DNA of 64,000 nucleotides from Acetobacter ghanensis (GTDB lineage Bacteria; Pseudomonadota; Alphaproteobacteria; Acetobacterales; Acetobacteraceae): assembly GCF_001499675.1 (NCBI RefSeq), contig NZ_LN609302.1:1525896-1589895 (forward strand), in the 5' to 3' direction. The notes below the pieces were generated by a model, which worked only from the letters and a program-made list of their open reading frames with translations, had not been told where the DNA came from and ran no database searches. A program made the translations under genes and the position numbers. Positions within the stretch are counted from its first letter, which is position 1; the number at the start of each line of letters is the position of its first letter. Of the stretch, positions 37,110 to 60,030 are shown piece by piece.

Positions 37110-38098
37110 ATGTTACGTAGAGAACTGTTGTTGGGAGGAGGCGCCGCACTGGTGGCCTCGCCGGTTTGTGCGCATAAGGCGGCTCATGCTGGGCATGGTG
37201 CGACCGGCGAATATGCCACGTTTCTTGCCGGAGTGCGGCGGGACGCCATAGCTCAGGGTGTTTCTCCCTCCGTAGTGTCTCAGGCTTTGGCGTTGACATC
37301 CACCCCCAACCCCAAAGTGTTGCAGGCAGACAGGCACCAGCCGGAATTTACCCTCACATGGGCGCAGTACAAAGATCGCGTTCTAACCGAAAAAAAATGA
37401 ACGATGGTCTCTCCGCTGTTCAGCGGCGTACGGACCTGATCGGGCAGATCAGCGGGCTTTATGGCGTCAGTAAGGGCGCTATTGCGGGGATCTGGGGGCT
37501 GGAATCCGCTTATGGCACCCGGATGGGGACGTTCTCGGTTATCGATGCACTGGCAACCTTGGCGTATGATGGGCGGCGGGCCAGTTTTTTTCGGTCTGAA
37601 CTGCTCAAGGCGCTGCATGTGGTGGAGCAGGCGGGGGTAGCCCCTGCCAACATGCTTGGCAGTTACGCCGGGGCCATGGGGCAGCCGCAGTTTATGCCCA
37701 GTGCGTACCTGCGTTATGCGGCTAGTTACCCTGCCGGGGGACGGGCAGATATCTGGCGGAACGAGGGGGATGTTTTTGCCTCTATTGGCAATTACCTTGC
37801 CCGTTGCGGCTGGCAGGCCGGTCAGCCTTGGGGGGAGGGTGTTCTGGTCCCCGATACGGTGAGTCAGTCCCAACTGGGGCGTGGTCAGGTTAGGCCAGTT
37901 GCATGGTGGCGGCAGCAGGGGGTAAGGCCTCGGGCCGGATCATTTGATTCGTCCGTCAGTGAAGGAGCGGTTATCCGTCCGGATGGAGCCGGCGGTGAGG
38001 CGTTTATTGTTTACCATAATTTCAACGTGATCCGGCGGTACAACCCGTCAGATTTTTATGCATTGGCCGTAGGGCTTCTGGGTGATGCCATAACGTGA
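37110..38098 (+). CDS. Membrane-bound lytic murein transglycosylase B (MltB family), frameshifted as read
   Basis: MltB-type enzymes cleave peptidoglycan with 1,6-anhydro-muramic ends. Frame one, from ATG 37110, encodes a signal segment (RRELLLGGGAALVASPV) and family sequence up to FTLTWAQYKDRVLTEKK, then stops at 37398-37400. The second frame picks up at MNDGLSAV and continues to 38098 with the catalytic Glu in GLESAYGTRMG, GAMGQPQFMPSAY and DVFASIGNYL. One extra A in the run of eight A (37390-37397) would join them into about 329 aa, the family length. The break is probably a base-calling error, otherwise a slippage site or a real mutation. The gene ends in a GTGA overlap with rlpA. Confidence 0.85.
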
Positions 38099-58042: not shown

Positions 58043-58726
58043 GTGCGCAGTATGGATTTCAGTTCATGGCATAGTGCGCTCATAACGGTTATTGGACTGG
58101 TATTTTTGACCCTGCTAGGGGTGGGCATTCGTCTGGTTATGATGCTGACAATCCAGCAGCGCAGGGAACGCCTAAACAGGCAGATTAATGAACGGATCAG
58201 AACGCTGATCGCGGCATATAAAACATTGGGGGGGTCATTTACCGGAGACCTCAGTGTTAGTCCGATACACCTGCGGGAAATCAAGACCAACGGTCAGGAC
58301 GCGGTGTCTCTGGATATGTCAGGGAGTTCGGAGCGTGCGCGCCGTATCCGTGATGCTGTTGAAGGCGCTCTGTCGGATATTATCCTGCTAGGCACCGAAG
58401 AGCACGTCCGTCTGGCCGTAAGAGCTGCGTCTGAACTGGCACAGGGGCGCAATGTTCATACGCATGATCTGGTGGTGTCGTTACGTAATTTTATTCGTAA
58501 AGCGCTTGATATCGAACATATTCCATCTGATCTGGAACTCCCGCGTCAGGGGCCAAGCCGTCCTTCGGCATCTGGCGGCCGAGATAAAGGAGAAGGGGGC
58601 AAAGATGGAGGCGCTAAAGGTGGTGGTGCCGGTGGAATGGGGGGAGGAAATGCCGGTGGCAGCGGCATGGGAGGGAGTATCTCTGCCGATAACGATGCAG
58701 ACACCTCATCCAGCCATCATATGTAA
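58043..58726 (+). CDS. Uncharacterised membrane-anchored protein with glycine-rich tail
   Basis: A 227-aa protein. One hydrophobic helix lies at residues ~12-36 (ALITVIGLVFLTLLGVGIRLVMML). The cytoplasmic conserved-looking region runs QQRRERLNRQINERIRTLIAAYKTLGGSFTGDLS, then RIRDAVEGALSDIILLGTEEHVRLA and VSLRNFIRKALDIEHIPSDLELPRQGP. The tail from ~180 is nearly all Gly, Ala and Ser with a few charges. GTG 58043 sits 6-7 nt after CAGGAGGGA, a strong ribosome site; ATG 58052 is less well spaced. Function unknown. It follows the dehydratase by 39 nt. Confidence 0.78.
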   Translation: MRSMDFSSWHSALITVIGLVFLTLLGVGIRLVMMLTIQQRRERLNRQINERIRTLIAAYKTLGGSFTGDLSVSPIHLREIKTNGQDAVSLDMSGSSERARRIRDAVEGALSDIILLGTEEHVRLAVRAASELAQGRNVHTHDLVVSLRNFIRKALDIEHIPSDLELPRQGPSRPSASGGRDKGEGGKDGGAKGGGAGGMGGGNAGGSGMGGSISADNDADTSSSHHM

Positions 58727-58828
58727 CGCTACGACCGGATAAAAAAGACTGCCTTAGGTGCCTTGCGTGGGGGGCGTTGTAGGCGGAACAGCCCACATCA
58801 CACAGGCTTGCGGGAGAAGAGGGGCAGT

Positions 58829-58855
58829 CGTTGTCGAGGGTGCTATTCGACAACG
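58829..58855. promoter_or_regulatory. Perfect 9-bp inverted repeat upstream of the RNase A-like gene
   Basis: CGTTGTCGA (58829-58837) and TCGACAACG (58847-58855) flank nine bases, about 60 nt ahead of ATG 58914. It may be an operator or a transcript hairpin, or the terminator of the upstream gene (no T-run). It lies in a 187-nt gap that otherwise holds no gene. Confidence 0.5.
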
Positions 58856-58913
58856 CATGGAGCATGGTGCATTCAAGTTAAAATTATCAAAAAACACACT
58901 TGGATGACCCGTT

Positions 58914-59705
58914 ATGCCCAAGCTCTTAAATTGTACCAGTGACGATATTCTCGACACGTTTCCTCGTCTGGCAGACCTTGGTAGCGGTACATTTGGGGAA
59001 GACGCTGATACCTTTGCCGATACACTACGTGACGGCATTCGGGATGATCCGCAAACGCGGAGTTTGCTATTCAAAAGCCAAACAATAGATGAATTAAGGC
59101 TTTTTCTGATTCATTGTGATGAAGATATTGAGCGGGTTAGCCGGGTTGTGCTTGGGATAAACCCTGCAGTTAATCCGGAAGAGCCGCCTGACTGGGGTAG
59201 TTTTCCAAGCCTGCGGTCATTCTGGTCTGCTGTTCTGCATGCCTTTGAAAATGATCTCGAGGTGCGGGTGGGCGAGAGCTTGGCCCGAGCAGACACGGGA
59301 GGGTATTTGTTATCGCGGGAGATAGTAGGCGAGGCTCTGCCATATAGTCGTCAGGCGGGCGGCTGTGTGCTGCGAAACCATGTTAATCTGACCGATGCGT
59401 ATATTGAGAGGCGGTTCGCAAGGGAGAGGCTCTTTGTGGTTTCGTTCTTCACTTCAAAGGAGGGGGCCGAACAAACCATTCTCAAGGTACTGAGTGATAA
59501 TTCTGACAAAATTGACGACTGGCTCCAAATTGCAGGGACAGGAGCCAAGCTGGATATTGAAGGATATATCTCAGGAAAGGGAACTGTCGTTATCGAGAGC
59601 GCTAATAGGCAGCATAAAGCTGCTCGGCGTATCCGCGTTACAATTGTCAAAGAAGAATACAACGGGATGGTTTATTATGTGCATACCGTCAAATTGTACC
59701 AATAA
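58914..59705 (+). CDS. Protein with C-terminal RNase A-like (CdiA-CT type) domain, orphan toxin candidate
   Basis: A 263-aa protein. The N-terminal ~140 residues are acidic and match nothing I know. Residues ~148-263 follow the bacterial RNase A-like CDI-toxin pattern: GGCVLRNHVNLTDAYIERRF, SFFTSKEGAEQTILKVLSDNSDKIDDWL, a glycine-containing strand pair, and a C-terminal RVTIVKEEYNGMVYYVHTVKLY. Compared with the family (GGHxxxRHV ... TxY), His156, Arg167 and Thr258 are in place. The first His of GGH is Cys151, and the final Tyr is either displaced (Tyr262) or replaced (Lys260). There is no signal peptide. No immunity gene is seen. Base composition is lower in G+C than the neighbours, which hints at transfer. 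Activity is unknown. Confidence 0.65.
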   Translation: MPKLLNCTSDDILDTFPRLADLGSGTFGEDADTFADTLRDGIRDDPQTRSLLFKSQTIDELRLFLIHCDEDIERVSRVVLGINPAVNPEEPPDWGSFPSLRSFWSAVLHAFENDLEVRVGESLARADTGGYLLSREIVGEALPYSRQAGGCVLRNHVNLTDAYIERRFARERLFVVSFFTSKEGAEQTILKVLSDNSDKIDDWLQIAGTGAKLDIEGYISGKGTVVIESANRQHKAARRIRVTIVKEEYNGMVYYVHTVKLYQ

Positions 59706-59877: not shown

Positions 59878-59980
59878 CGACGATTGGTGTCATTGCAACC
59901 GTGATACTGGAAATTAACGTCTGACCCGACTGAGAAGACATTTCCATTCGGTTAGAGTGAGCCTCCTCCAATCTGGCGCG

Positions 59981-60030
59981 TAGAACCAAAAATCGCATAA
60001 GATATATTATGCCAACAAAATATGGTTCTA
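59981..60030. repeat. Nested inverted repeats (cruciform-like)
   Basis: TAGAACCA (59981-59988) pairs with TGGTTCTA (60023-60030). Inside, GCATAA (59995-60000) pairs with TTATGC (60007-60012) around GATATA. The two stems give a 50-nt extended hairpin in A+T-rich sequence. Confidence 0.75.

Follow-up and report, generated by a model that had tools for sequence, protein, structure and literature searches.

Toxin and immunity domains, the raw material of bacterial competition, are usually encoded by separate neighbouring genes, and a locus that encodes both in a single polypeptide raises the question of how such a protein came about and what it may be kept for. We address this question for a gene of Acetobacter ghanensis located in a 64,000-nucleotide stretch of contig 1 (NZ_LN609302.1, positions 1,525,896 to 1,589,895; hereafter the window) of a 2.84 Mb genome in three contigs (GCF_001499675.1). 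An initial annotation made from the letters alone had described its product as an orphan RNase A-like toxin domain with altered catalytic positions, joined to an N-terminal part of unknown type. The comparative analysis relates the two halves of this protein to RNase A-like toxins and to CdiI_2 immunity proteins, finds the catalytic letters of the toxin half intact and locates the same fused frame at one locus in three Acetobacter species. Given that toxin and immunity are usually separate neighbouring genes, the protein appears to be a toxin inhibited from the outset by its own partner domain, inherited from an old array of toxin and immunity genes and retained by selection.

An RNase A-like half behind an immunity-like half

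Residues 152-258 match the PF18431 family (RNAse_A_bac) with 56.5 bits (E=6e-15), clearly passing the family cut-off of 27, and a profile built from the C-terminal half (C-half) and 15 relatives (16 C-halves) retrieves the toxin chain (chain B) of PDB 5E3E, the CdiA-CT of Yersinia kristensenii, with an E-value of 4.5e-15. These matches bear out the assignment of this region to the RNase A-like CdiA-CT family in the initial annotation, and dispose of its alternative proposal of a new toxin class. No other PF18431 match was found in the host genome.

According to the passages of PMC9086364 describing the Yersinia toxin, its active site encompasses H175, R186, T276 and Y278, and CdiI contacts H175, T276 and Y278. 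The window C-half presents His156, Arg167 and Thr258, as originally noted, and H175 was equated with His156 because the same His-to-Arg spacing of 11 is observed in the 5E3E chain (His of RHV, Arg of LLNR) and in the window, a mapping made in this analysis. Two positions depart from the Yersinia sequence. The GGH motif reads GGC (Cys151); its His, five residues before the catalytic His, is conserved, yet it is not among the four active-site residues reported for Yersinia. The place of Tyr278, two residues past Thr258, is occupied by Lys260, with a Tyr at position 262, so that the Tyr of the fourth active-site position is not conserved here. The last Tyr had been read as shifted or replaced, and the replacement stands. 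It does not serve as a sign of inactivation, since the aligned separate-gene toxins of an Acetobacteraceae subgroup also carry Lys or Arg at this place, with the exception of one truncated fragment with Ile. The alignment therefore identifies Lys260 as a feature of the subgroup and not as a loss, and the argument for inactivation based on this Tyr was dropped; Tyr278 is, moreover, a residue of the studied Yersinia protein and not a Pfam requirement for PF18431.

The N-terminal half (N-half) turned out to be related to the CdiI_2 immunity family. Comparison with hhalign of 16 N-half relatives against eight immunity genes that follow RNase A toxins yielded a probability of 92% (E=6e-7), and all five of the reference immunity genes that were scanned (L048, L049, L051, L052 and L012; L and G numbers designate loci and genomes) pass the PF18593 (CdiI_2) cut-off of 26.7 bits. 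More remote relatives within the family, reached by an iterative profile started from the window N-half, also pass it (L066, 33.7 bits; L072, 52.5 bits), and identity of the N-half reaches 74% with separate immunity genes and 52% with a paralogue in the same genome. The N-half profile returns the Yersinia CdiI chain as its first PDB match (E=0.0048) if two distant bridging rows are included. Separate-gene relatives of the N-half stay below the cut-off, at 26.0 bits (L082, E=1.6e-5), 24.9 (L067), 19.3 (L084) and 13.6 (L094), and no PF18593 match was obtained for a further one (L080, 10127-10657). Because such scores are sub-cut-off and the match to the CdiI structure depends on the two distant rows, sequence comparison supports the label CdiI_2-related, and we do not call the domain CdiI_2.

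An AlphaFold2 model based on 31 rows (mean pLDDT 84) predicts two folded parts separated by a linker, in line with the structure prediction of both halves proposed initially. The N-half is modelled entirely as helices and the C-half as two helices, a strand, two helices and four strands. The table in PMC9086364 lists CdiI as all-alpha and the toxin as helix-helix-strand-helix-helix followed by five strands, so that the predicted order of the C-half agrees with the published Yersinia order apart from the last strands, which number four and not five.

The 263-residue protein carries no CdiA part (no CdiB search of the genome was made), and no secretion domain was matched in Pfam or NCBIfam, although no dedicated signal-peptide search was made; both results agree with the earlier description. 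The further remark that no immunity gene is visible holds for the surroundings, with no separate immunity gene found adjoining the fusion gene, and fails for the gene itself, whose N-half is immunity-like. The parts of the gene are collected in Table 1.

Table 1. Parts of the fusion gene and the decayed toxin tail at its start, in window coordinates
Feature	Position	Strand	Basis
Fusion gene, 263 aa: immunity-like half, linker and RNase A-like half	58914..59705	+	Intact open reading frame, ATG to TAA
N-half, residues 1-126: CdiI_2-related immunity domain, predicted all-alpha	58914..59291	+	Profile match and AlphaFold2 model
Linker, residues 129-149, predicted disordered	59298..59360	+	pLDDT <50
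C-half, residues 148-261: RNase A-like toxin domain (PF18431)	59355..59696	+	Pfam and profile matches
Active-site His156 codon	59379-59381	+	In the C-half, with Arg167 and Thr258; GGH motif is GGC at residue 151
Decayed tail of a further toxin gene (shifted frames), overlapping the fusion-gene start	58818..58942	+	Shuffle-tested alignment scores

The search for N-half relatives also identified another immunity-like gene in the host genome (L005:7273-7828; contig 1, 37273-37828; position 37370), which lies behind a decayed toxin tail and whose frame extends beyond the usual end. In addition, two immunity-like domains per frame were observed at L086:6474-7433 (G029) and at L095:1709-2626 in A. 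papayae (G027, a draft genome, 86% complete), which are polyimmunity proteins of this family.

Distribution of the fusion, its probable array ancestry and probable selection on the frame

In relatives, the two domains are encoded by two genes, a toxin gene followed by an immunity gene of ~127 aa, in the order opposite to that of the fusion, and the last ~8 toxin codons overlap the start of the immunity gene (~29 nt including the stop). The survey of homologues and their neighbours suggested in the initial annotation located relatives of the N-half as separate genes directly behind relatives of the C-half, so the window gene, in which the N-half is fused in front, joins immunity and toxin in reverse gene order. 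On a Pantoea plasmid, a pair of this kind is encoded by two distinct genes (PF18431, E=2e-31; PF18593, E=3e-16). Full separate toxins comprise ~320 aa and contain a conserved N-terminal region of ~200 residues that matches no Pfam family (L084:5728-6690 and relatives). This region is missing from the fusion, with no known delivery domain in its place, and no secretion gene was detected among eight neighbours scanned at three loci of separate Acetobacteraceae toxins. At L080, L057 and L054, in other genomes, a toxin-immunity pair heads an array of additional toxin fragments and immunity genes, in which an immunity gene stands before an orphan toxin fragment.

A remnant of such an arrangement precedes the fusion gene. 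The decayed toxin tail listed in Table 1 attains a protein score of 61, against a maximum of 38 in 500 shuffles, and its DNA aligns into the start of the fusion; strictly before the ATG, the protein score is 44 (shuffled maximum 37) and the DNA score 70 (shuffled maximum 25; 300 shuffles). The presence of a decayed toxin tail directly upstream argues that the immunity half once stood behind its own toxin, and points to a tandem array as the source of the fusion; the attached toxin half probably derives from a second module. No upstream toxin tail was seen by eye in the three frames before the A. lovaniensis fusion. The idea that traces of another immunity gene persist beyond the stop codon was rejected, as 117 of 500 shuffles do as well as the sequence strictly downstream of it; a score of 35, reached by one of 500 shuffles, is obtained for the stretch near the stop when the toxin/immunity overlap is counted in.

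Matches to the protein at E <=0.001 were obtained in 16 of 49 genomes of the genus, four of which contain both halves in one open frame: the window genome, A. lovaniensis (G015), A. fabarum (G009) and G048. Within the family, 14 of 397 genomes match the fusion profile and two span the whole fusion (the window and G343, from another genus); among 385 genomes of the class two match, with a full span in the window genome only. A family search with PF18431 matched 23 of the 397 genomes at 35 places, 30 of which were examined as loci. The same immunity-then-toxin layout is presented by the fusions at L077, L078, L079 and L060, and the linker letters RADTGGYL are common to the window fusion and A. 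papayae.

The fusions of A. lovaniensis and A. fabarum occupy the same syntenic locus as the window gene, with the same neighbours in the same order; they are 51% and 50% identical to the window fusion, and the neighbours 67-98% over their main stretches. The shared locus starts with a DUF333 lipoprotein gene followed by a DUF1348 gene, both checked in Pfam, and continues with genes provisionally named from their sequences as YeiH-like, LysR, threonine dehydratase and, beyond the fusion, cysH, cysD and cysNC. Between the dehydratase and cysH genes of G014 and G022, in gaps of ~0.44 and ~0.97 kb, no match to either half was detected. A survey of 30 of the 48 cysH loci in the 49 genomes, each with up to 1.5 kb upstream, found the fusion before cysH in three (window, G015 and G009), and the G048 fusion lies far from its cysH gene.

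A second fusion group comprises another Acetobacter and another genus, and L060 and L079 form one clade in the C-half tree. A single clade of all fusions is rejected by the N-halves (approximately unbiased test, p-AU 0.015) and not by the C-halves (p-AU 0.37), in a test that is weak because the groups were chosen after viewing a tree and six long rows (loci L068, L076, L086 and L095) were left out. The rejection by the N-halves, even if the C-halves do not share it, suggests that the fusions had more than one origin. In the G048 fusion the toxin domain is followed by an extension of ~28 residues whose final stretch is rich in Lys and Phe (L079:7103-7189).

The A. lovaniensis and A. fabarum fusions differ by 15 synonymous and three non-synonymous changes (omega 0.057; NG86 counts, own script), which are distributed 10:1 over the first 140 codons and 5:2 over the last 101 compared, a toxin half with few sites. 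Between the window and A. lovaniensis the nucleotide distance is 0.41, with synonymous sites near or at saturation, and the three codon positions vary by 0.34, 0.29 and 0.59. When neutral evolution was roughly simulated, with uniform substitutions amounting to half the pairwise distance, the open frame survived in 0.2% of 2000 runs. The omega pattern and the rarity with which neutral simulation keeps the frame open make it very probable that the fusion frame has been kept by selection.

Counterparts of His156, Arg167 and Thr258 are kept in all six fusion rows, which represent five lineages and include A. papayae in spite of its halves lying in different frames. The GGH-His position is Cys in the window, L060 and L079, and Tyr in A. 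papayae, A. lovaniensis and A. fabarum. Once the rows of seven duplicate loci had been removed, this His was found to be kept in 28 of 30 non-fusion rows, the exceptions being L064 (Tyr, separate genes) and L088 (Arg, cut before Thr258), and its loss is associated with fusion status (Fisher p=6e-5, lineages counted once, kinship uncorrected). This parallel loss is suggestive of a weakening or retuning of the tethered toxin.

Other features of the region were examined as well. The gene upstream (58043-58726, + strand) encodes a protein of 227 aa that, as judged by eye, is hydrophobic over an N-terminal stretch and rich in Gly at its tail, and no family above its cut-off was found for it in Pfam, NCBIfam and PHROG scans. 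A link of this gene to the fusion was ruled out: it occurs in 21 of the 49 genus genomes and not in G009, G015, G027 or G048 (G343 was not searched). Downstream, a stretch of 33-59 nt that precedes cysH (59967-60025) is 85-97% identical in G014, G015, G022 and G045, and a longer stretch is 74% identical in G043; most of the remaining gap is without match, and no Rfam match was found up to E=0.5. This conserved stretch is a possible candidate regulatory site of cysH-cysD-cysNC. Counts in a scan for promoters and terminators fall within the spread of shuffles. A phage or defence origin of the fusion was considered and found unsupported (best PADLOC E=0.01). The PHROG family phrog_25038 (function not assigned) matches the toxin half in the window (E=0.003) and in the separate toxin of L084 (E=1e-7), indicating that the RNase A-like domain is also present in phage proteins.

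A proposed self-neutralised RNase and the competing explanations

The explanation that we favour, and consider reasonably probable, is that the gene encodes a single-chain immunity-toxin pair, a self-neutralised RNase that acts within the cell that makes it. A first immunity gene followed by a second toxin is the order found in a tandem array, and the joining event is our reconstruction from it: the immunity gene of one module would have been joined to the toxin tail of the next, and the delivery region, the first toxin and the second immunity gene would have been lost. By analogy with the separate CdiI of the Yersinia complex, the N-terminal domain may fold back via the flexible linker and cover the RNase active site, in which case the protein would be made as a self-neutralised RNase. 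The relationship of the N-half to CdiI_2 immunity proteins is in keeping with an inhibitor fused at the N-terminus, one of the three guesses initially put forward. Within the producing cell, the protein could provide a reserve of immunity domain against toxins of the same family from neighbours, and possibly also a latent RNase that can be released.

Several observations weigh against this explanation. The window N-half itself scores 15.5 bits against PF18593, below the cut-off, and the profile of close relatives does not find the Yersinia CdiI structure when the two distant rows are omitted. The pTM of 0.56 lends no support to a defined docking of the N-half on the C-half, and the two halves, probably coming from different modules, need not be a matched pair. 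The omega of 0.057 pertains to one close species pair and not to the lineage of the window, where synonymous divergence is saturated. A. papayae has adjacent halves that lie in different frames, and the loss of the GGH His in all fusion rows would also fit an inactivated tail.

This last point leads to the main rival explanation, in which the N-half is a working orphan immunity protein directed at the RNase A-like toxins of neighbours and the C-half a disarmed toxin remnant, kept solely for stabilising the protein. A disarmed C-half would account for the loss of the GGH His in all five fusion lineages (six rows), and agrees with a genome that holds a single PF18431 match and, following a decayed toxin tail, another orphan immunity gene. 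There is also a precedent in Escherichia coli EC93, which, in the passages of PMC3150448 concerned, makes an orphan immunity protein and apparently not the orphan toxin fragment. Such disarming is at odds with the presence of all three catalytic residues (His, Arg and Thr) in each of the six rows and with a purifying pattern that, few sites notwithstanding, extends to the toxin half (five synonymous to two non-synonymous changes). Bound to the immunity domain, a tethered toxin domain would also be expected to compete with the incoming toxin. The domesticated or inactive RNase considered in the initial annotation faces the same two observations, the kept catalytic residues on one side and the GGH His lost from every fusion row on the other. 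On balance, we regard an immunity protein with an inert passenger as possible, if rather unlikely.

A more speculative use, to which we assign a low probability, is that of a tripwire, whereby the tethered immunity domain would hold the RNase domain inactive and a related RNase A-like toxin from a rival would bind and displace it, and the freed RNase would stop the attacked cell or alter its growth. If true, a decayed weapon would have been turned into an attack sensor, and the repeated loss of the GGH His from distinct fusion lineages would be part of the change of role.

Decayed module pieces are frequent here and in relatives, and the A. papayae halves lie in different frames, as might be expected if the fusion were an accident of array decay with no function. 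The frame is nevertheless intact at the same locus in three species that have diverged widely (0.41 between the window and A. lovaniensis), two of these show the low omega reported above, and the second fusion group includes another genus, making a neutral chimera highly improbable. Although relatives encode ~320-aa freestanding toxins with the same C-terminal domain, the freestanding effector envisaged in the initial annotation, here taken as secreted and carrying its own inhibitor for safe export, is barely credible for a fusion that lacks the N-terminal region of those toxins, matches no known secretion domain and would presumably take its covalently attached inhibitor into the target too.

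As a single-chain immunity-toxin pair, one conserved chromosomal protein would illustrate a route from a weapon array to a house-kept protein, and would provide a compact, testable system (one chain, two domains, a known active site) in which to study what is retained by selection after the loss of delivery. Fusions that have possibly arisen more than once, each without the same conserved His, could serve as a natural experiment on the effect of tethering.

Relation to known toxin-immunity systems

The toxin chain of the Yersinia kristensenii ATCC 33638 CdiA-CT/CdiI pair (PDB 5E3E) is homologous to the C-half, with H175, R186 and T276 corresponding to His156, Arg167 and Thr258, and its CdiI is all-alpha in the table of PMC9086364, as is predicted for the N-half. 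In contrast to the Yersinia pair, the fusion is one polypeptide with the immunity domain first and no CdiA, and presents Lys260 for Tyr278 and GGC for GGH. The displaced systems outlined in passages of PMC3150448 resemble this locus in their displaced toxin tails followed by immunity genes, their lost delivery region and their tandem arrays, and differ from it in that the toxin half here is read from the start codon of the immunity-like half.

A fused toxin-antitoxin, CapRel-SJ46, likewise combines toxin and inhibitor in one chain according to PMC9712102. Inhibition in cis, which is only proposed here, is reported there; the likeness is one of logic, the domains being unrelated, the CapRel inhibitor is C-terminal, and phage sensing has been shown for CapRel-SJ46 with nothing comparable here. 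Zhang et al. 2012 (PMC3482391) mention, in the passages on domain fusions, that immunity domains are occasionally fused to toxin domains (SUKH with Tox-GHH, Imm36 with Tox-NucA and Imm35 with papain-like toxins), and also list immunity-immunity fusions. These involve other families, and those passages name no RNase A/CdiI_2 fusion; nor was a single-chain fusion of CdiI_2 and RNase A described in the titles and abstract beginnings searched, most subscription literature being outside their reach. The examples from PMC3482391 place the fusion in a kind that is already known, and what is new with respect to the sources covered is its combination of an RNase A-like toxin with a CdiI_2-related immunity domain.
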